The translations under genes were made by a program, and so were the position numbers. From a virus: DNA of 57,704 bases. The first letter of the stretch is position 1. The number at the start of each line of letters is the position of its first letter. This document shows, one piece after another, positions 28,024 to 39,040 of this stretch. The notes beneath the pieces are model-generated. The model did not search any database. It was not told where the DNA came from and saw nothing but the letters and a program-made list of their open reading frames with translations. The stretch lies in IMG/VR virus record IMGVR_UViG_3300042884_001115, positions 1-57,704 of that record; one strand, given 5' to 3'.

Positions 28024-29514
28024 ATGGCTTGTAATGATTTAGGTTTATTTGCTCTTGACACATCCGCTAGTTTGGATTTGTGTTTATCTGCACTTACAAC
28101 TACGGTATACGGAGATAGTTTGGTAATTGGTGAAGAGATGTATATTGATTCAGGTTGCACGATGCCTTTAGCATCAATATATTTGAGTAACGGGTCTAAT
28201 TTATATTCAACAAATGGTTCAGGTGAAATTACAGGAGTTTCAGGTTGTTCTTGTAATTTTTTAGGAAATTTTTCATCAGCTTCAGATCCTGAACTTTCTT
28301 GTTTATCACCATTAGATTATACCTTGTATGGTTCTGATTTAAACATTGGGTCTATTGTATACACAGATTCAGCTTGCACAACCACAGCATTAATTTCTTA
28401 CTATTCTGATGGTGTTGATGTTTATGATGTTGATAGTGCTGGTGAAATATTAGGAATATCTGCCTGCACTTGCACAGGAACATTTTGTATTCAAAATGAT
28501 ACAACATACGACGACACATATGAAATTGCAGGAACTTATGATGGTCAGTCATATTATACAGGTGAATCGACAAGTTTTGTAATTTATTACTCCACAGGTG
28601 AAACAAGATGGTGTTTAGCTCAAAATCTTGGTGATCCTTGTGATCAATTCGGACCATATGGTAGCACATCCTCTTGTCCTGATTTAGATGATAGTGTTCT
28701 TTATTTTGGTCCATGCACAACAACTACAACAACAATTAATCCTTGTTCTACGTTAGATTTGGAAGCGGTTTTTGATTGTTATATACCACCAACACCTTCT
28801 ATAACACCATCATATACACCAACACCAACACCGACAATGACACCGACAAGTTCGGCAATTTGTGGTGGTGTTTCAATGGTAGTTTCAAAATTAGGTATAT
28901 CACCAACTCCAACACCTTCGTTTACACCGACACCAACTCCAACTCCACAAGTTGATAGACCTTGCAATTTTTCGGGTGAAGTTATATTTAATACATTTTC
29001 TGAAATTATACAATGTGCAAATAGTAAAAAATTCAGAGATTGCTTTACAGGTATTCAATATTTTACATCAGATTTGGTTTTGGTTTCAGGAACTACATCA
29101 CCAAAAGAAGGTTATGTATATAACGCAATAATTAACGGACAAGGATATTGTGTAATTTATGATGGGTTATTTGAAAATATAAGTGGTGTGGATACAATTC
29201 AGTTATTAACGGAAATAGGATCAACTACAGATGGTGCTTGTTTAAACTGCGTTCCTGAATTAACACAAACTCCAACTCAAACACCTACTCAAACACCAAC
29301 ACCGACTCCAAGTCCTACACCATGTGTTCAGTTTGAATATACAATTGTTAATGACAGTCCATCTAAAATATCAATATCTTATTTTAGTTGTGAAAATGGT
29401 CCTTCTTCAATTTCTATGAATCCAAATACTTCAATTTATTTGTGTTCAGCAACAACACCAGTATCCAACAACCCTCAAAACACTCTAATAACAAATACAG
29501 GATTTTCTTGTTAA
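28024..29514 (+). CDS. Fibre-like protein with duplicated domain and Thr-Pro linkers, 496 aa
   Basis: Two related domains at about residues 20-75 and 95-150 (YGDSLVIGEEMYIDSGCT and YGSDLNIGSIVYTDSACT, each ending GxxSxCxC). A Trp-containing domain follows (DGQSYYTGESTSFVIYYSTG, then ETRWC), then Thr-Pro linkers (YTPTPTPTMTPTSS; TPTPSFTPTPTPTPQ; TPTQTPTQTPTPTPSPTP) between further Cys-containing beta domains. It looks like a segmented receptor-binding or surface-displayed fibre protein. The only structural genes on the plus strand are this and its small partner. Confidence 0.75.
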   Translation: MACNDLGLFALDTSASLDLCLSALTTTVYGDSLVIGEEMYIDSGCTMPLASIYLSNGSNLYSTNGSGEITGVSGCSCNFLGNFSSASDPELSCLSPLDYTLYGSDLNIGSIVYTDSACTTTALISYYSDGVDVYDVDSAGEILGISACTCTGTFCIQNDTTYDDTYEIAGTYDGQSYYTGESTSFVIYYSTGETRWCLAQNLGDPCDQFGPYGSTSSCPDLDDSVLYFGPCTTTTTTINPCSTLDLEAVFDCYIPPTPSITPSYTPTPTPTMTPTSSAICGGVSMVVSKLGISPTPTPSFTPTPTPTPQVDRPCNFSGEVIFNTFSEIIQCANSKKFRDCFTGIQYFTSDLVLVSGTTSPKEGYVYNAIINGQGYCVIYDGLFENISGVDTIQLLTEIGSTTDGACLNCVPELTQTPTQTPTQTPTPTPSPTPCVQFEYTIVNDSPSKISISYFSCENGPSSISMNPNTSIYLCSATTPVSNNPQNTLITNTGFSC

Positions 29515-29569: not shown

Positions 29570-30178
29570 TTATTCCCAAATACCTTTATGTCTCATAAAG
29601 CCTAACGCACAAGTATAAGCGTCAGTTTGATCAAAGTTTTCTTTTTTAAGTGTATTATTTTTGGTATATAACCATTTGATTTGAGGTTCTCTTTTTGCAA
29701 CCTTTTCCCAAATTATCATTTTCTTATCAACATCTTTTGGAAGACCCCCAAATAGAACGTGTTTCTTTTTATCGTTTTCCTGAACTAATTCGGGAAATGC
29801 AAACTTTCTTGAATTGTATGTTGAAATAAATTCGGGAACAATTCCAAATATGTTGTATATCTCTTTGAAAACAAAACTATTAAATCTTAATAGGGTTTGA
29901 ATTGTATATACATTGTTAGAATTTAATAAAGGCTCTTCAATTACGATTCTTACAATTCCAAGATTTTTATATTGTTTTAACTTCTCTGAAAAAATTTCTG
30001 ATTTAAGTAATAACTCTTTTAATTTATCATCGTCATCTTTATCCATTTTAGGTCTTGGTGAAACGTGGGTAAGTTCTAATAACTCTTGAGTTTGGATGTC
30101 GAATAACGCCCAACCAATTGTTTTGGTTGATATATCAAGTCCCAAGACTTTTGGTGTGTTTTTCAGATTTTTTGCCAT
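29570..30178 (-). CDS. RuvC-like Holliday-junction resolvase, 202 aa
   Basis: RNase H-fold core: VLGLDISTKTIGWALFDI (catalytic Asp15), IVIEEPLLNSNN (acidic residues near 80) and a C-terminal DQTDAYTCALGF (acidic residues near 187-190). It lies alone, followed by a strong terminator. The likely role is resolving branched recombination intermediates before packaging, the task done in T4 by the unrelated endonuclease VII. Other RNase H-fold nucleases cannot be fully excluded. Confidence 0.85.
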   Translation of the reverse strand: MAKNLKNTPKVLGLDISTKTIGWALFDIQTQELLELTHVSPRPKMDKDDDDKLKELLLKSEIFSEKLKQYKNLGIVRIVIEEPLLNSNNVYTIQTLLRFNSFVFKEIYNIFGIVPEFISTYNSRKFAFPELVQENDKKKHVLFGGLPKDVDKKMIIWEKVAKREPQIKWLYTKNNTLKKENFDQTDAYTCALGFMRHKGIWE

Positions 30179-30235: not shown

Positions 30236-32731
30236 TTAGAAATCTAATTTTACCACGTATTGTTGGATTCCTTGTCGTAAAACAGGTGATTGTAATTTCG
30301 ACATAACAAGAATATCTTCATTTTCATCTAATAATGCAATTTCCGTAACATAAGATTGAGTCCCTTTTGTCCATGTTGGGTTTTGGGACACCAAAAATTC
30401 AGAAGAACTTAAGTTTATCTTATATTTCATTTCGTAGATCGTTGCTTGAATATCTGTCTCTAAATTTCCATAGAAATAATATTCATCACCAAAGTTTAAT
30501 TGTTGACCTGTCGCACCATTAGGAACAAGTGTAACATAATCATTTAGATTGTAGAATGGAGCGCTGTCATAATTTTCAGCAGTAATTGTAAATGTCGTCG
30601 CCGTTAATGATTCTTGTGTTACATATCCATTAATAAATAAACTACTTACTTGTTGTGTAAAATCAATCATCTTCCAACTTTCAGGGTTTGGTCTTTGTCC
30701 CGTAGGAACTCTTTGAGCTAATACTTGGAATTCGGTCGCGTAAAAACCTGCAGGAACAACACAACTTGGACAAATAGTTGTTGTGGTTGTAATTAATGGA
30801 CTTGTGGTTGTAGTTGTTGTTGTAAAAGGAATTGTTGTAGTTGTGGTTGTTGGTGTAAAACCTGGTTGAACTAAACAAGGGAAATCACCTCCGAATCTAA
30901 CCGCAACATTTTTTGGTGTTTCAGGTGAACAAACATTTTCAGTTCCAACTACGTTCACATAGTAATTACAATGTAATGAATTAGTAAAGTAATTAGTGTT
31001 TGTTAATCTATAAGTCACCCACATTGTTTCACTACCACCAGTTAAAACTCCTGTCGTATTAGAAACACCACAAGTGTTTGGTGTTAATAACGAAACTTGA
31101 GGTGCCGGTAAAGTCCAATTTCGATTTGACTTATATGAAAGTGCCGCAACCAATTCTTCGTCATCTATTATTATCATTTTAGAATCGGGATAAACTTTAC
31201 CAACTCTACTTGGAAGTCCATTTGGTTGTGCAAATGTGTCCCATAAATTGTAATATCTCAATCCAGGTTTATTCATGTTGGACGAAATATTTGATTTTGT
31301 ATATTGAACTGTAAATAAGTTTTTACCTTCGAACCCTGGAGGATCAACATAGAATGTTTGACCAAAACAACATTCAGAATTTTTATGCCACATTATTGTT
31401 GGCATGTGTAACTTAAAGTTTCTTGCTTGACCTTGTGTGTTTTCAGGGTTTTGTGTGTCATATGGTTCTAAAGCAAATTTTTCACCATAAAAGAAATCTA
31501 TTGTTTGATTAGTATAATGAATAATTGCAATAGCCTTTTGATCTTGCGGTGTCACAACTTGTTTTTCACCAAAAGAGTTATAATAATAAACATCGTCTGT
31601 AGATGTTTGAGCACTTGTTGTATAACCAAAGTATTCTTTTTGACCGATATAATTAATTGATCCAAATTTGGTATAGTCTTGGTATTGTGATGACAATAAA
31701 CCTGCCGGACTTTCAGTCCACGGAATATTCATGTTCCAAATTTTGACATCAAATTGATCCGTATCACAAACTGATTCAAAATCAATAACACTTTGAGCCC
31801 AATGCGGTTCAGGTGTAAAACTATCATACAAAGGAACCATTTGTGGTGGATATATTAATGTTCTTGCAATACAATCACTTGAAAGATTGGTAAAGTCGGG
31901 TGTTGGTCTATCTAATGTTAATTTATCATTACATACCGCAACGATTCTATATGTTAATATTGAAAAACAAGAATTAACATTTTTCAAACAATCAGGTGGT
32001 GGTGGTAAAGGACATTGAGCACTTGGCGTAGGTGATATACAAGGTGTTTGAGTTGGGCTTGGTGTCGGTGTAGGTGACGCACAAGGGTTTGATAATGTTG
32101 CCGATGGAGTTGGTGTAGGTGTTGGTGTTTGTCCTACCGATGCCGATGGTGTTGGTGTCGGGAAATTAGAACAAGAACAATCATTTTTTGCAAACCCATC
32201 ATAATATATTGTAATAAAATCACCAACTTGTGGTGTATTATTATTTTGACTATTACAATCTAATCGATATACGTTGATTTCATTTGACCCATTTAACGTT
32301 GACATATTAACAACATAATTTGGTGTCACAACATATGAATTATTAACAAGAGCCTTCCAATTTACAGTTGACGCTGTTGTGTTTCCTGTAAAAAACCCTC
32401 TCATTGCAGCTCTATTATAAACAGATTCAATTTGCGAATCCATAAATGGAATACCATAAAGGTTTGTTTGACCTTCATCAACCAAATAAGGATATTTAAT
32501 ATATTGTCTATTTGATTCAGGAACTCCTGAACTATTTTGAGCATTAAATTGAGGTTCCAATACAACGGTGTTTGATTGGTTATAAGTGTTTGGTAGTTTA
32601 TTATAAGATATTTCACTATCACCAATAGCAAAATATGTGATATTGAATCTACCTTCAGACAATCTTTGTCTTCCCGTGTCAGTAACTCGGGTGTTAACCA
32701 AACCTGATGTATTTTTAATTATGTAGGCCAT
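30236..32731 (-). CDS. Large fibre/baseplate protein with Thr-Pro and poly-Thr linkers, 831 aa
   Basis: The N-terminus (MAYIIKNTSGLVNTRVTDTG) resembles attachment domains of large-phage structural proteins. It has a Thr-Pro-Ser linker (PTPTPSASVGQTPTPTPT, residues about 190-245) and a poly-Thr linker near 635-660 (TTTTTIPFTTTTTTTSP). The C-terminus is beta-rich. Its linkers match those in the plus-strand fibre at 28024-29514, suggesting shared evolution. Late-type motif 4 bases upstream of the ATG. Probably a tail fibre or baseplate-associated structural protein. Confidence 0.75.
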   Translation of the reverse strand: MAYIIKNTSGLVNTRVTDTGRQRLSEGRFNITYFAIGDSEISYNKLPNTYNQSNTVVLEPQFNAQNSSGVPESNRQYIKYPYLVDEGQTNLYGIPFMDSQIESVYNRAAMRGFFTGNTTASTVNWKALVNNSYVVTPNYVVNMSTLNGSNEINVYRLDCNSQNNNTPQVGDFITIYYDGFAKNDCSCSNFPTPTPSASVGQTPTPTPTPSATLSNPCASPTPTPSPTQTPCISPTPSAQCPLPPPPDCLKNVNSCFSILTYRIVAVCNDKLTLDRPTPDFTNLSSDCIARTLIYPPQMVPLYDSFTPEPHWAQSVIDFESVCDTDQFDVKIWNMNIPWTESPAGLLSSQYQDYTKFGSINYIGQKEYFGYTTSAQTSTDDVYYYNSFGEKQVVTPQDQKAIAIIHYTNQTIDFFYGEKFALEPYDTQNPENTQGQARNFKLHMPTIMWHKNSECCFGQTFYVDPPGFEGKNLFTVQYTKSNISSNMNKPGLRYYNLWDTFAQPNGLPSRVGKVYPDSKMIIIDDEELVAALSYKSNRNWTLPAPQVSLLTPNTCGVSNTTGVLTGGSETMWVTYRLTNTNYFTNSLHCNYYVNVVGTENVCSPETPKNVAVRFGGDFPCLVQPGFTPTTTTTTIPFTTTTTTTSPLITTTTTICPSCVVPAGFYATEFQVLAQRVPTGQRPNPESWKMIDFTQQVSSLFINGYVTQESLTATTFTITAENYDSAPFYNLNDYVTLVPNGATGQQLNFGDEYYFYGNLETDIQATIYEMKYKINLSSSEFLVSQNPTWTKGTQSYVTEIALLDENEDILVMSKLQSPVLRQGIQQYVVKLDF

Positions 32732-32758: not shown

Positions 32759-34831
32759 TTATGTAATTGGAGGTGCCGGGTTTAATCTTGGGTTAAGAAG
32801 AAATACCGAACAACACTGACAATTATTTATCGTAGGGTTTGTCATTGTTAAGTTATATGAACCAATATCATTTTCACATCTTCCACTTGGGTCATTAATT
32901 ATATTATTTGTTGTCGTTCCACTAACAACTTGATTACTCACCAAAGTAATTGTATTTGTATAAGTATTTGTTGTTTGTGCAACTCCAATAGAACCTGTTC
33001 TAACACAAGGACCTGTCAACGGAGTTATATTTAACATAGTATTTGTCAAAGTCATAAGTCCTGTTCCAACTATCGTTGTAAAATTATCATATGTTGGTTG
33101 TGGTGAAAGTGTTGTTGGGTAATAACTAAACGTTGAAGTCATAACCAAATTAAGATCTATTGTAACACCTGCAGGTAAAGTAGGTGCCGTTATAGTAAAT
33201 AATCCCGTGCTATAGTTTACATTCAACACGACTGAATATGATACAGGTGGTGTATTATTTATCACAACAGGTGAATATAACCCAATATTATTTAATGAAT
33301 CTTTCGCATAAACTATATAAGACCCCGGTGTTAGTCCGTTGAATATCGGAGATGCTTGATAATTTATACCATCGACCGAATATTCGTATGGTGCAATACC
33401 TCCACTTGCGGTTAGTGTTATACTTCCCGTTTCTTCACATAAGGCATCATTTATTGCTGCATTGACATTTATTGTATAACCAGTGGAACAATCACCAGTC
33501 AGAACAAACATTTCTAAAACTTCAGGTTCACCATTAACAACCCAATTACTAATTGGTGGATCTGATGGATCATTACTTGTTAATGTGAGGTATGGGTTTG
33601 TATAACCTGTCATAACCCATTGATTAGGCGTTGATCCTGTATTCCAATAAATCAAATATTGTCCCGTTGACGAGGTCCAACTTGGTTGTCCATTAATTTC
33701 GTTACTTGGGTCTAATCCAATATTTAAAGTGTCTGTTGGTGAGTCTGAATTTCCTGTATTTATAATTAATGTAACACAAAGATTGGTGTCTCCTTTAACA
33801 ATTGCAGGTATTTGACATGGACCAACATAAGATTCAATTATTTGGTATTGACTATCAGATTCAACCACCCAATCACCTGTAGTTCCTGAAGGATAATAAG
33901 TTGTTCCTGTATAAGTGTTGTATGGGCTTATATTTTGACAATCTAATGTTTGACAAAAATACCAAGTTTCATATTCTGTATTCCAAAATACATAACCATA
34001 CGTTTCACCCAAATATTGTATTTGGTAATATGGTTTTCCGTTTTTAAGTCCAAGACTTTCGGCTGAAATATAAGTTAAAACTTCACCTGTAATTCCCGTC
34101 ATAACAAAACACATACCAGATATGGTTAATGTTTCTGCCGTTAAAACACAAGTGGTGTTCGCTGTAAAATCACCATAGTAATCAGTCACAGTTGCTGAAT
34201 ACTCACCAACACCTAAATTATTAAGGGCTGGTGCAAAACTTCCGATCTCCCAAAATATAGTATAAGGTGGTGTTCCTCCTGTAATCGCTAATGTCGCAGC
34301 GCCATCAAAAGATCTATCGTTGGATGGGTTTTGAACAATACACTCAACGTCCATTGGGAATATTGTAATAACATCACATTCGTTAGGTGGTTTTACCGTT
34401 GGTATTGTTGGTGGACATTGGTTGTTTTGACAAATATCCGTTATTTTAATTGGTATTTGAGACTCCCCATCAAATTGAGGAAATACTTTACTACAAATAT
34501 TATATGTTTGTCCTTCTTGTAATGTTTCAACAACAATAAGATCATTACAATCTACATAAGTCACATCAACATTTGTTTCTAAACTTCTTATAAAATAACA
34601 ATAACATTGACAAGAACATGTTGTTCCTGTGTTTATGTCAATATCATAGGTTATATCACATTCCATTTCACCTAAACTCAAAACATAAAAACAAGTGTCA
34701 GGAGTTTCACCCAAATCAATAATGTTAATGGATACGTAACTTTCAGAATAAGCACTTAATCCACTGTAATTAGAAATGATTGGTTGGTAACCTCCATCAC
34801 AAGAATATAGTATATAACAGTTTTCAATCAT
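32759..34831 (-). CDS. SprB-repeat-like surface/fibre protein, 690 aa
   Basis: Contains SprB-type repeats, for example TGGTPPYTIFWEIGSF followed by NNLGVGEYSATVTDYYG (near residues 190-230), and ASGGIAPYEYSVDGINYQ followed by LTPGSYIVYAKDS (near 470-515). Two copies of a Trp/Tyr-rich domain are also present (NGKPYYQIQYLGETYGYVFW; STGQYLIYWNTG), resembling one in the 496-aa plus-strand protein. The N-terminus is Cys-rich. It likely forms part of a fibre or decoration facing the host surface. Late-type motif upstream. Confidence 0.75.
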   Translation of the reverse strand: MIENCYILYSCDGGYQPIISNYSGLSAYSESYVSINIIDLGETPDTCFYVLSLGEMECDITYDIDINTGTTCSCQCYCYFIRSLETNVDVTYVDCNDLIVVETLQEGQTYNICSKVFPQFDGESQIPIKITDICQNNQCPPTIPTVKPPNECDVITIFPMDVECIVQNPSNDRSFDGAATLAITGGTPPYTIFWEIGSFAPALNNLGVGEYSATVTDYYGDFTANTTCVLTAETLTISGMCFVMTGITGEVLTYISAESLGLKNGKPYYQIQYLGETYGYVFWNTEYETWYFCQTLDCQNISPYNTYTGTTYYPSGTTGDWVVESDSQYQIIESYVGPCQIPAIVKGDTNLCVTLIINTGNSDSPTDTLNIGLDPSNEINGQPSWTSSTGQYLIYWNTGSTPNQWVMTGYTNPYLTLTSNDPSDPPISNWVVNGEPEVLEMFVLTGDCSTGYTINVNAAINDALCEETGSITLTASGGIAPYEYSVDGINYQASPIFNGLTPGSYIVYAKDSLNNIGLYSPVVINNTPPVSYSVVLNVNYSTGLFTITAPTLPAGVTIDLNLVMTSTFSYYPTTLSPQPTYDNFTTIVGTGLMTLTNTMLNITPLTGPCVRTGSIGVAQTTNTYTNTITLVSNQVVSGTTTNNIINDPSGRCENDIGSYNLTMTNPTINNCQCCSVFLLNPRLNPAPPIT

Positions 34832-34837
34832 ATAATA

Positions 34838-34848
34838 TTATAAATAAT
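34838..34848 (-). promoter_or_regulatory. Late-type motif ATTATTTATAA
   Basis: Core TATTTAT 6 bases before the ATG at 34831; it touches the stop codon of the glycosyltransferase gene. Confidence 0.45.
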
Positions 34849-35828
34849 CAATTTTCGTATTTTTTTATATATGATTTCATGTTTTCGATGTATTTAATTG
34901 TCGAACTGTTTTTATCTATGTAATTAAAAAAGTTTTCATCCTCCTTTAATTTTAAAATGGGGTCAATATTAATATAATCACCTTTATAGAATTTTGTAGT
35001 TTTTAGATCATCTGTAACACCTGCCATGTGTAATATGTTTTTTGAGTTATAAATCTCAATAGTGTCAGTAGCCCATGAAAAATCAAGATCTGAAATTATT
35101 TTTGTTTCGTATTCATACAACCAAAGATTCCACAACACGGCCCACATTTCTGCGGTCCAAAATTGTATTTGACCTGGATTGATTGGGAAACGTTTTTGAT
35201 AATCTAACATCTGATCGTATAATTTTATTGAGTCTTTATACATTTTATCCCATAGTTCACAATTTGTGTTTTTAAAAAGGTATTGACCTCCTCCTGAATT
35301 TTTTTGATTTTGTTTAATTGTGTCAACATCAACTCCAACAACATTTGCCATTTCAGAAATGAGTTGTCCTTTCTCAGAATTTGGGTTTTGACTTTCATAT
35401 CTTTTACAACAATCCATAATGTAGTTATATCCAATATATCCAATCGTATCTGACATGTAACAAACCTCATCATTCAATAACCGATCAAAACTCGGTAGTT
35501 CGTTAAAAATAATATCTGAATCGTGAAGAAAAAATAACTCACCATGTTTCGGATTTTTTTGAATCCACTTTGAAATTAAAAATGGTTTTATTGATGGTAT
35601 ATAATGTTTTTTAATTCTTTCATCAACAAAGTGATGAACATTAATCCCAAGATCTTTCAACTGTAAAGATTCTCTTGACGGTTCATTATTTTCATTTTGT
35701 AAACTAAAAATAACGTGGATTTGATTGGGATTGATTCCTTTCTCTATGAAATTATGAACGTATAGTTTGATTTGCCAAATAAAATATGGCACGTCAGGTT
35801 GTGCGGTAACAAATAAAATTTTTTCCAT
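34848..35828 (-). CDS. Putative glycosyltransferase, GT-A type, 326 aa
   Basis: Begins with a Rossmann-like strand (MEKILFVTAQPDVPYFIWQI). The GELFFLHDSDIIFNELPSF segment near residues 95-113 carries the D-x-D metal/nucleotide-sugar motif. Later GGGQYLFKN, QFWTAEMWAVLWNLW and ILHMAGVTDD are typical of GT-A-type acceptor/donor regions. It lies between a SprB-like fibre gene and a Ser/Thr-Gly-repeat fibre gene, so these Thr/Ser-rich structural proteins are plausible substrates. The sugar and family number cannot be given; it could instead modify host surface glycans. Confidence 0.72.
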   Translation of the reverse strand: MEKILFVTAQPDVPYFIWQIKLYVHNFIEKGINPNQIHVIFSLQNENNEPSRESLQLKDLGINVHHFVDERIKKHYIPSIKPFLISKWIQKNPKHGELFFLHDSDIIFNELPSFDRLLNDEVCYMSDTIGYIGYNYIMDCCKRYESQNPNSEKGQLISEMANVVGVDVDTIKQNQKNSGGGQYLFKNTNCELWDKMYKDSIKLYDQMLDYQKRFPINPGQIQFWTAEMWAVLWNLWLYEYETKIISDLDFSWATDTIEIYNSKNILHMAGVTDDLKTTKFYKGDYINIDPILKLKEDENFFNYIDKNSSTIKYIENMKSYIKKYEN

Positions 35829-35866: not shown

Positions 35867-36526
35867 TTAAATTTGTGTTACAGTAACAATTAAAGATGGT
35901 ATTACAGGTCCGTAAGTTGGGGCTCCATCAAATGACATAAATGTGTTTGTTTGTGATGCAGTCCATAAAATTTCATAATAATCACCGGCATTTGCCTGAT
36001 CAACCCAATTCCATGCCGCAACTACTCTATCTCCATTTGCACCATCTAAAGTTATTTGAGTGTTTGTTTGTGCTATTGATGAATTATTTCTACTTAACCA
36101 AATAAAAACTTCTGATTTAGTTCCACTATTTTTTTCTAATTGTGCCGAAAACTGTATATTATAAACACCATCATTAGTCACAATAAATTCACTACTATTG
36201 TTAAGTGTAACATCCAAAGACCCTGTTGTTGTATCCGCACTCATTTTATATGTTGTGCCAGCAACACCAATTGGTTGATTTACCGATGATATAAACGATC
36301 CCCAAGCTCTTCCTGATCCATCTTGACCTGAAGTTCCACTCGTGCCTGAACTTCCACTAGTTCCACTCGTGCCTGTAGTGCCACTAATGGCCGATGCAAC
36401 TTGTTGGATTGTTGCTTTAAAAGATGATCCTGCAGGATTTTGACTAGTATCTCCCGTTACCACAACGTGAATAAAATCTGTTAAACTAACACCCGATACT
36501 TGAGCTTGATCCGTTAATAGTGACAT
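35867..36526 (-). CDS. Collagen-like/C1q-like tail-fibre protein, 219 aa
   Basis: The N-terminal attachment segment (MSLLTDQAQVSGVSLTDFIH) leads into a Gly-x-Ser/Thr repeat (GTTGTSGTSGSSGTSGTSG, residues about 50-68). A C-terminal jelly-roll domain follows (YKMSADTTTGSLDVTLNN; DGVYNIQFSAQLEKNSG), resembling C1q/TNF-like trimeric heads. Short trimeric fibres of this layout are often receptor-binding proteins. Strong late-type motif upstream. Confidence 0.75.
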   Translation of the reverse strand: MSLLTDQAQVSGVSLTDFIHVVVTGDTSQNPAGSSFKATIQQVASAISGTTGTSGTSGSSGTSGTSGQDGSGRAWGSFISSVNQPIGVAGTTYKMSADTTTGSLDVTLNNSSEFIVTNDGVYNIQFSAQLEKNSGTKSEVFIWLSRNNSSIAQTNTQITLDGANGDRVVAAWNWVDQANAGDYYEILWTASQTNTFMSFDGAPTYGPVIPSLIVTVTQI

Positions 36527-36548: not shown

Positions 36549-36854
36549 TTATTGGAAATCGTATTCGTCTCCCGACATAAAAAAGAAATACTCGAATGTT
36601 TGGAATTGTTTTTTCTTACTAAAATCTTCCTTTGGTTGACAATAAATTATTTCACTAATTTCACAACCTTCACTATCAATTAATTTTAATAAGAGTGCGG
36701 GTGCCGTATCAAATAATGGTGGTAAATTAAATAAAAAAGGAAGTGTTGTTCCACTACCTAAATATTGACATTGATTTCCATATACATCACAAGCAATACC
36801 ACTAAAAGGTGGTGTTAGATTATTTGACGATATTACTAAAACTTGATTTGCCAT
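36549..36854 (-). CDS. Small fibre-associated protein, 101 aa
   Basis: Start set at the ATG at 36854, which overlaps the upstream stop as TAATG; an upstream TTG would add three residues. Likely paralogue of the plus-strand protein at 27804-28022: SSNNLTPPFSGIACDVYGNQ, TLPFLFNLPPLF and LIDSEGCEISEI align with that protein. Function unknown, probably accessory to the SprB-like fibre gene with which it is coupled. Confidence 0.65.
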   Translation of the reverse strand: MANQVLVISSNNLTPPFSGIACDVYGNQCQYLGSGTTLPFLFNLPPLFDTAPALLLKLIDSEGCEISEIIYCQPKEDFSKKKQFQTFEYFFFMSGDEYDFQ

Positions 36855-39040
36855 TAACCACAACTAACACAAGATATATCGTAATCAATAACCAACTTAA
36901 CAATGACCTCATTATCTTGTAATGGATTTAAAGGAACTATTTCACATCCTTTTGGTATATCTTCACATGTTGTAGTTATTGTTATTCTATTCGACACTAT
37001 ATCAACAGTAGTTCCTGAAATACCCAAGAATGAATCTAAAGTTTCAACAATTGTTTGCGCCCATAACGTGTCTGTTGGATAATCGGTTGATCCACTTGAT
37101 GTATAGAATTGTGTTTGGGCAGATTGTGATCCAACTTGTGCATATATTGAAAACGTTGCTTCGTTTATAATACAGTTTGTATCTCCACTTGTCAGATCAG
37201 TAAATCCTTCCAAATACATCGCCCTCATACTTCTTTTAGTTACCGTTCCCGTATCTCTAAAAGTGTTATCACATATGTTATAATATCTATAATCACCATA
37301 TCTTTTAGTTCCTTTTAATTTAATTGTTTTTGATAAAGAACAACCTTCATTATCAACAACAGTTAAAGTGTAAGTTCCTGCAGTCAAACCTGTTACAGTA
37401 GATCCTGTTTGACCATTAACGTTACTACCCCATATTAAATTGAAAGTAGGAACCCCTGATAAAATATATGCGGTAATTGCACCATCATTACCATTAATTG
37501 GTTGCGACGCAATTAAATTAAAAAATACATTTTGACTATTATCAATATACACATTATATGTTTGAATACAACTTGGTGATCCTGAATCTTGAACCGTCAA
37601 GGTATAATTACCATATTTAAGATTTGTAAATGTGGATAAGAAAGTTGTTGTGGTCACAGGACTATAAGTTGGTCCCGTAAGAGTGAATATGTATGGTAAT
37701 GTTCCTCCCGTTGAAACTGTGACATCTAAAATACCGTTATTACTACCACAAGTTGTTCCTGTTGTTGATGCTGTAACCGTAAATAAATTAACAGATGTTA
37801 TATTAGTTGTTGCAGTATAAGTGCAACTTGTTGATTGAACGGTAATTAAATACGTTCCATTTGGAAGTCCGTTGAATGTTTGAGTTGGGTTTCCTAAACT
37901 TCCAACTTGTTGTGTTCCACTTGTTCCTGATATTGAAATTAATAAACTTGGTTCTGTGCTCAATCCATTATCAACTATAACCTGAATAGATCCCGAGTTT
38001 TGAGAACAAAAAGATGGTGTCGTGTTAACTGCAACCGTAGTGAATGAATTCGGTGTTAACATTGACACTGAATCATAGATGGTGCATAGTCCCGCATCTG
38101 TAACTAAAAACGAATAATTACCTGATGATAGTCCAGTAAATGTCACTGATGATGCGAACGTAATATCAACTTGACCTGACGAACCACTAAAGAAATAAGG
38201 TGGAGTTCCTCCTGTTACAATAAATTCGACTTCACCGTCATTAGCAAAACAAGTTGGTTGTGAAATAACAATAAACCCACCTGAACCTAAAGGATCTACG
38301 GCTTGAACATTAAATGATTGTGTATCAGAACAATTGCTAGGATCTGTTACTGTAACTATATAAGTTCCACCCGTTAAACCAGTAACTGTTGTTCCTGTTT
38401 GTCCATTAACATTTGACGACCAATTTATTGTATATGCCGATGAAGGTAATGTTAAACCTGTAAGAAATATTTTTCCACTTCCAACTCCATTACAACTTGC
38501 ATCATCAACAACATAACCACCAAAAGTAAAACCTGTTGATGGTGTAACAATTACTGAAGCCGTGATTCCTGTGCAACCACCACCATCATCAGCAACTATA
38601 TAATATGTTCCTGCTGAAAGAGATGTAAAATTATAATAGTTAGTTGCGACTTGTGATGAGGTGACTAAATTATTAAGTCCATCATATAAACTAAAAGTTG
38701 CAATATTATAAACCCCAGAAGTGTATCCCGTAATAGATCCATTGTTTAATCCGCATGTTGTGTTTTCAGAATCAATCGTTGCGGTTGTTCCTGATGAAAC
38801 ATAAACGGCCTGAACGTAATTATTTGACGATCCATCAACAACTTGTAAAAAATATGTATCAGCGGTAATACCTGAAACACCATAAGAAGTTGTGGTTGCT
38901 GAGGTTGGTAAACTACAACCTGAACTAATACATGTTACGGCAAAAGGGGGTGTTGTTCCTGTAATATCAAAGTATAACGCTCCTGATCCCGTATTACTAC
39001 AGTCTCCAGTTACACTATAATTATAAATTGTTATACTCAT
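36854..39040 (-). CDS. Multi-repeat SprB-like fibre protein, 728 aa
   Basis: About seven tandem beta repeats of 75-85 residues. Examples: NGQTGTTVTGLTGGTYIVTV, TGGTPPYFFSGSSGQVD, VTFTGLSSGNYSFLVTD and TVTGLTAGTYTLTVVDNEGC. The G-T-x-P-P-Y and L-x-x-G-x-Y-x-x-x-V-x-D signature is that of the SprB repeat of flavobacterial gliding adhesins. The last about 150 residues form a separate domain resembling the end of the 995-aa baseplate protein next door. Probably a long flexible fibre. TAATG coupling on both sides. Confidence 0.8.
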   Translation of the reverse strand: MSITIYNYSVTGDCSNTGSGALYFDITGTTPPFAVTCISSGCSLPTSATTTSYGVSGITADTYFLQVVDGSSNNYVQAVYVSSGTTATIDSENTTCGLNNGSITGYTSGVYNIATFSLYDGLNNLVTSSQVATNYYNFTSLSAGTYYIVADDGGGCTGITASVIVTPSTGFTFGGYVVDDASCNGVGSGKIFLTGLTLPSSAYTINWSSNVNGQTGTTVTGLTGGTYIVTVTDPSNCSDTQSFNVQAVDPLGSGGFIVISQPTCFANDGEVEFIVTGGTPPYFFSGSSGQVDITFASSVTFTGLSSGNYSFLVTDAGLCTIYDSVSMLTPNSFTTVAVNTTPSFCSQNSGSIQVIVDNGLSTEPSLLISISGTSGTQQVGSLGNPTQTFNGLPNGTYLITVQSTSCTYTATTNITSVNLFTVTASTTGTTCGSNNGILDVTVSTGGTLPYIFTLTGPTYSPVTTTTFLSTFTNLKYGNYTLTVQDSGSPSCIQTYNVYIDNSQNVFFNLIASQPINGNDGAITAYILSGVPTFNLIWGSNVNGQTGSTVTGLTAGTYTLTVVDNEGCSLSKTIKLKGTKRYGDYRYYNICDNTFRDTGTVTKRSMRAMYLEGFTDLTSGDTNCIINEATFSIYAQVGSQSAQTQFYTSSGSTDYPTDTLWAQTIVETLDSFLGISGTTVDIVSNRITITTTCEDIPKGCEIVPLNPLQDNEVIVKLVIDYDISCVSCG

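Follow-up and report, generated by a model that had tools for sequence, protein, structure and literature searches.

A predicted phage GT-A glycosyltransferase and its probable poly-threonine acceptors on virion proteins

Results

The window, as we call the whole 57,704-nucleotide stretch of virus DNA that was analyzed (IMG/VR record IMGVR_UViG_3300042884_001115), encodes a predicted glycosyltransferase whose relatives occur in near-constant company with threonine runs on capsid, tail, and fiber proteins. We judge it likely, from sequence comparisons, that the enzyme O-glycosylates poly-threonine tracts of the phage's own virion proteins. The same near-constant co-occurrence leads us to propose that the enzyme probably coats the virus particle with sugar.

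A GT-A enzyme that sequence profiles do not reveal

The enzyme gene and its conserved motifs are as follows.

34848..35828, minus strand: PHROG 4417 protein, predicted soluble GT-A glycosyltransferase, 326 amino acids (profile match, AlphaFold model, conserved motifs, hydropathy)
35514..35525, minus strand: H-D-S-D motif, residues 102-105, predicted DxD metal/UDP-sugar site (41-sequence alignment)
35142..35156, minus strand: T-A-E-M-W motif, residues 225-229, nearly invariant, predicted active-site region (41-sequence alignment)
35019..35030, minus strand: H-M-A-G motif (H-x-A-G), residues 267-270, nearly invariant (41-sequence alignment)

The open reading frame is intact, begins with ATG, and lies in a run of minus-strand genes; a record-wide search found a single copy. 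The PHROG 4417 profile, annotated "unknown function," matches the protein over its full length (E 2.1e-68; residues 6-319 to profile positions 3-290 of 293); a function is proposed here for this family. Pfam and NCBIfam profiles gave no match to the window protein at E ≤ 1. Weak matches to PF03407 were seen in just 3 of 41 family members (best E 0.0094), and no GT8 profile appeared among the weak Pfam matches of the 41-member family, the resemblance to GT8 being at the level of fold.

An alignment of 41 diverse homologues was used both for AlphaFold modeling and for scoring motif conservation. The resulting model (pLDDT 96.1, pTM 0.93) was matched best by glycogenin in VIA-align (Z 16.1, rmsd 3.4 over 227 residues), followed by LgtC (Z 14.6), UGGT (14.5), GlyE (14.1), and LARGE1 (13.8). 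Foldseek agreed on the GT-A class, with a modest TM score of 0.44 for UGGT, and among viral models it retrieved LP65 Orf49 of a Lactobacillus phage (TM 0.70). Glycogenin and the other GT8-type enzymes LgtC and GlyE, together with UGGT (GT24) and LARGE1, have the fold and the DxD motif in common with the window enzyme, but identity over the aligned region is 6-13%, and a sequence-profile match to them is not convincing. The acceptors of glycogenin and UGGT are proteins or glycoproteins. Within the H-D-S-D motif, D103 and D105 are invariant across the 41 homologues, and the H-M-A-G motif resembles HxxG, a metal-ligand motif in the C-terminal part of GT8 enzymes. The model and the conserved motifs indicate that the window protein is a GT-A fold glycosyltransferase. 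They bear out the original prediction of a GT-A enzyme with an H-D-S-D motif; the fold is predicted with confidence even though sequence profiles do not reveal it. No membrane segment was found in the protein (highest 19-residue mean hydropathy, 0.86), and by hydropathy it is not a membrane-spanning protein of the serotype-converting Gtr type.

Threonine tracts in the window

The genes adjoining the enzyme gene and the candidate acceptors are listed below.

35867..36526, minus strand: collagen-like (GTSG-rich) fiber-like protein, directly upstream of the enzyme gene (weak tail fiber PHROG matches)
32759..34831, minus strand: protein rich in Thr and carrying SprB repeats, encoded just downstream of the enzyme gene (Pfam, composition)
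30236..32731, minus strand: predicted fiber or baseplate-associated protein, 831 amino acids, best candidate acceptor (poly-Thr tracts, fiber-bait counts)
30776..30850, minus strand: poly-Thr tracts T6, T7, and T5, residues 628-652 of the 831-amino-acid protein, mixed Thr codons (tract and codon scan)
32021..32161, minus strand: Thr-Pro/Ser-rich linker, about residues 191-237 of the 831-amino-acid protein, possible second acceptor (sequence)
28024..29514, plus strand: second candidate acceptor, a 496-amino-acid protein on the opposite strand that contains Thr-Pro repeats and a T6 tract (tract scan)
28717..28734, plus strand: T6 tract, residues 232-237, codons ACA ACA ACT ACA ACA ACA (codon scan)

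The enzyme gene had been described as lying between two fiber genes rich in Thr, Ser, and Pro. Its immediate neighbors are indeed virion-like and rich in threonine and serine (Thr + Ser, 12.8 + 14.2% and 13.3 + 7.8%), and their repeats and context suggest that they are fibers. The poly-Thr and Thr-Pro tracts, however, are in other genes, 30236-32731 (minus strand), the second gene downstream of the enzyme gene, and 28024-29514 (plus strand). Fiber glycosylation was the better supported of the two functions first suggested for the enzyme, since the family co-occurs with virion poly-Thr, but its likely targets differ from the two adjacent genes.

Other features of the region were noted. Baseplate wedge genes lie at 52-55 kb of the window. 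For one of these genes, six records of nearest named relatives were found, and four of the six are Flavobacterium myoviruses. SprB, a Pfam repeat named for a Flavobacterium adhesin, also occurs just below the Pfam cutoff in a predicted fiber protein at 36854-39040. A RuvC-like resolvase gene (PHROG 159; 29570-30178) is located within the fiber cluster.

A gene with a run of at least five threonines (T≥5) was present in 73 of 80 near relatives of the window. Its commonest position was two genes downstream of the enzyme gene (56 loci), and in 34 loci such a gene lay four genes downstream on the other strand. Seven near relatives lacked one: the sequences of L006, L030, L056, and L068 end no more than 650 bases past the enzyme gene, that of L046 ends 1.7 kb past it, and those of L016 and L028 end 3.4-3.8 kb past it. 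A 1,456-amino-acid protein near the enzyme gene in another locus (L176:309-4679) has 19 separate runs of at least five threonines.

Family distribution and C-terminal tails in Bacillota phages

Relatives of the enzyme were found in 74 of 50,697 phage records, whose hosts are Lactobacillus, Enterococcus, Staphylococcus, Lactococcus, one Chryseobacterium, and a few more. Among genome_contigs, 39 loci carry relatives and are for the most part Bacillota prophages. Two scans of virus contigs found 216 and 511 stretches with relatives, of which the best 80 of 216 and the best 80 of 511 were kept. In most phages examined, the enzyme gene is located in virion modules.

In Bacillota phages and prophages, the enzyme gene normally comes after a major tail or capsid gene. 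Forty-four upstream-neighbor proteins were collected by taking the protein just upstream or, where a small gene intervenes, the nearest larger upstream gene (L084 is not among them). Half of these (22/44) match PHROG 88, a major tail protein family, and major head families are matched by others; most end in threonine runs at the C terminus. Of the 39 genome_contigs loci, 36 (all except L102, L119, and L126) have a T≥5 tract on the coding strand in the 1 kb upstream of the enzyme gene; the figure for other large genes at those loci is 12 of 261. In 155 of 156 tract genes of Bacillota-type loci, the last tract is within 25 amino acids of the C terminus.

Several named phages carry more than one such protein. 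The capsid and tail proteins of Lactococcus phage 1706 both terminate in poly-T plus HHD, and phiFL2B, SA2, and VPE25 each have tracts on more than one gene. In Lactobacillus phage Bacchae (L084), the gene two positions ahead of the enzyme gene encodes a T7-tailed protein, and in Chryseobacterium phage MA9V-3 the protein immediately upstream of the enzyme contains Thr/Ser arrays. Small proteins of about 113-122 amino acids lie just upstream of the enzyme gene in L090, L092, L100, and L116; some look by eye like a fibronectin-type domain, after which come several Thr runs linked by KP, KA, or EKP.

Threonine tails track the enzyme gene

To compare loci with and without the enzyme, tail protein and capsid baits were trimmed of their poly-Thr tails before searching, and loci missing the stop codon or the 1.3 kb downstream of it were dropped. 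Among major tail protein loci (73 usable of 80), 18 had both the Thr tail and the enzyme, 54 had neither, 1 had the enzyme only, and none had the tail only. Capsid loci (68 usable of 76) gave nearly the same distribution (18 with both, 49 with neither, 1 with the enzyme only, 0 with the tail only). At the enzyme-only locus L284, an 83-amino-acid protein with T11 and T7 directly precedes the enzyme gene, and at the enzyme-only locus L305, both genes have frameshifts. The Enterococcus-type tail protein (64 usable loci of 79) was tailed together with the enzyme in 25 loci; 27 loci had the enzyme only, 12 had neither, and none was tailed without the enzyme.

Fibers of the window type were sampled with baits lacking tracts. 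The 138 loci obtained were reduced to 73 distinct proteins by removing 51 loci whose protein was identical to one already included, 13 with less than 6 kb upstream, and 1 that was cut. Threonine tracts and the enzyme occurred together in 62 of these, the enzyme only in 5, neither in 6, and tracts only in none. Loci around the 995-amino-acid neighbor were uninformative as controls, as the enzyme-negative ones end within that gene or a few kilobases after it. At the level of whole records, tracts of six ACN codons were present in 6/6 enzyme-positive phages; the whole records of Flavobacterium immuto, LR756508, and Microcystis Mel-JY01, which are relatives of the window's baseplate gene, contained neither the enzyme nor any ACN × 6 tract.

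Adjacent genes can travel together, and linkage therefore accounts for part of the association. In its strongest form this explanation holds that the tail and enzyme genes are neighbors co-moved by recombination and that the Thr tail and the enzyme have other roles. The two genes do usually abut in Bacillota loci, and few independent pairs fall on supported branches. Adjacency was addressed by looking for a Thr run in a further gene whose end lies over 0.6 kb upstream of the tail gene. Such a nonadjacent gene, encoding a capsid or small head-module protein, was tagged in 19/19 enzyme-positive loci and in 1/39 enzyme-negative loci (58 usable of 80). Co-movement also fits poorly with the shared ending of unrelated proteins in phage 1706 and with the aquatic phages, where the tracts are encoded two genes from the enzyme gene or on the other strand. 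We regard it as unlikely, although it is the strongest of the alternatives. Taken together, the tail, capsid, fiber, and nonadjacent loci indicate that candidate Ser/Thr acceptor segments on virion proteins track the phage-encoded enzyme.

The effect is confined to threonine. T≥5 runs were found in 79 of 464 genes of enzyme-positive loci and in 2 of 1,272 genes of enzyme-negative loci; no residue other than Thr gave a comparable pattern, runs of each of the others occurring in 0-1 genes of enzyme-positive loci. ACN repeats are simple sequence, but it is extremely improbable that the tracts arose as slippage microsatellites or as low-complexity noise in AT-rich genomes, given this specificity, the mixed codons (none of 403 distinct T≥6 tracts is a single-codon repeat), and dinucleotide shuffling of the window, which yielded its four tract matches in 0/100 trials; microsatellite origin was rejected on the codon mixing.

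Exceptions and phylogenetic independence

The large co-occurrence counts overstate independence because few supported independent changes occur on the trees. The tail protein tree has 10 changes of tail and 11 of enzyme, with 4 well-supported independent pairs that are nearly always concordant (p 0.125). There is one enzyme change on the capsid tree and there are two on the fiber tree; supported independent pairs number only 4, 2, and 2 in the tree tests, which are therefore statistically weak.

Exceptions occur in both directions. L255 has a T10 tail and no enzyme relative in its 39-kb prophage record, the tail being on a 105-amino-acid head-module protein (L255:2495-2812), and L350 has a T6 tract and no enzyme in its record. 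Two bacterial metagenome-assembled genome (MAG) loci, L119 (Hymenobacter) and L126 (Arachidicoccus), have enzyme relatives with no nearby Thr tracts; these are possibly cellular or decayed phage copies. Six marine loci (L133-L138) combine the enzyme with proteins rich in Thr-Pro/Ala-Pro and have no T≥5 run, L134 and L136 being assigned by composition alone; this pattern suggests a looser acceptor rule or a different target. The window's own tracts do not adjoin its enzyme gene.

Host surface and DNA as alternative substrates

Modification of host surface sugars was the second function originally suggested, and excerpts of two papers attribute a host-surface role to some phage glycosyltransferases (PMC12619734, PMC10202952). 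For the window enzyme to alter host surface polysaccharide, as in superinfection exclusion or seroconversion, is improbable: nothing in the data points there, the protein is soluble (best 19-residue hydropathy, 0.86) with no membrane segment, its gene is in a tail module here and in virion modules in most phages examined, and the association with Thr tracts would be left unexplained.

Glycosylation of phage DNA bases, which excerpts of PMC12619734 give as a role of other phage glycosyltransferases, is less probable still. In Bacillota phages the gene sits in a virion module, and its association is with tracts in proteins and is confined to threonine. T4-type DNA glucosyltransferases are GT-B enzymes, and the fold of the window enzyme is closest to glycogenin and other GT-A enzymes.

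Threonine tails in shifted frames

In VPE25, L091, and L117, the capsid gene has no in-frame tail, and an open −1 frame running across the stop encodes a long Thr tail. The 0-frame ends of these genes are GCA AAG TAA, CCA AAA GCG TAG, and TCA AAG TAA. The SA2 tail protein has T8 and then ends ...ACT CCC TAA, and its +1 frame carries on with further Thr runs. The shifted-frame poly-Thr sites are at the capsid stops L086:7749, L091:9902, and L117:3071 and at the tail protein stop L083:7707. L088 and L125 were also flagged; their shifted reading resembles an ordinary overlapping gene or a broken gene.

Tail proteins extended by frameshifting occur in siphophages such as SPP1 and Listeria PSA. Likewise, the Thr tails of VPE25, L091, L117, and SA2 cross a stop in a shifted frame, but what they append is a Thr tag, not a folded domain, and frameshifting here is inferred. 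The arrangement suggests that a programmed frameshift may tag a fraction of the capsid or tail subunits.

Discussion

In the mechanism that we propose, a soluble, cytoplasmic, metal-dependent GT-A enzyme would draw sugar from a nucleotide-sugar donor and add it to threonines of poly-Thr, perhaps also Thr-Pro, tracts, either during assembly or earlier. The tags of Bacillota phages would be C-terminal tails on major tail, major capsid, or small head-module proteins. In the window phage and its aquatic relatives they would be internal tracts of fibers, foremost the products of 30236-32731 and 28024-29514. We lean toward a broader picture of single-enzyme, mucin-like tagging in Bacillota prophages and Bacteroidota-type aquatic phages, some with a programmed frameshift for partial tagging; one GT-A enzyme would recognize poly-Thr tags on any virion protein that a given phage glycosylates, be it capsid, tail tube, small head protein, or fiber. 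The benefit is a matter of speculation; a hydrated sugar coat, for example, might confer protease resistance, hide the surface, or alter receptor contact.

Virion O-glycosylation of mycobacteriophages, Che8 among them, was reportedly described by Freeman et al. in Cell Host Microbe in 2023. In Che8, the capsid protein ends in ...NKTGS and the tail protein in ...YSDGS, and neither has poly-Thr. None of the 74 phage records carrying the enzyme is a Mycobacterium record. Excerpts from the mycobacteriophage literature describe glycans on the C termini of capsid and tail tube proteins (PMC12619734), their O linkage (PMC11652166), and their shielding of phages from antibodies (PMC12619734, PMC11652166, PMC11256854). 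That system and the proposed one are alike in having a phage-encoded glycosyltransferase and in the C termini of capsid and tail proteins as glycan sites, which in the proposed system are predicted; the window phage differs in that its tracts are on fibers. The original remark that fiber glycosylation would be unusual for a phage holds in that glycosylated phage virions are rare, but excerpts from three papers already report them for mycobacteriophages (PMC12619734, PMC11256854, PMC11652166). In the open-licence PMC literature, we found no description of poly-Thr tags and no function for the family; virion glycosylation was described there, in the excerpts covered, for some actinobacterial phages only. 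Within that literature, virion glycosylation itself is known, and the enzyme family, the poly-Thr tag, and the fiber targets appear to be new.

The family is widespread (74 phage records, 39 genome loci, and more than 500 virus-contig stretches), and poly-threonine is its probable acceptor code, which suggests a compact pair of enzyme and peptide tag. If this is true, sugared virion proteins would be readable from genome sequence, the prediction would extend to prophages of Enterococcus and Lactobacillus relatives and to Staphylococcus phages, and the effect of the coat would become directly testable.
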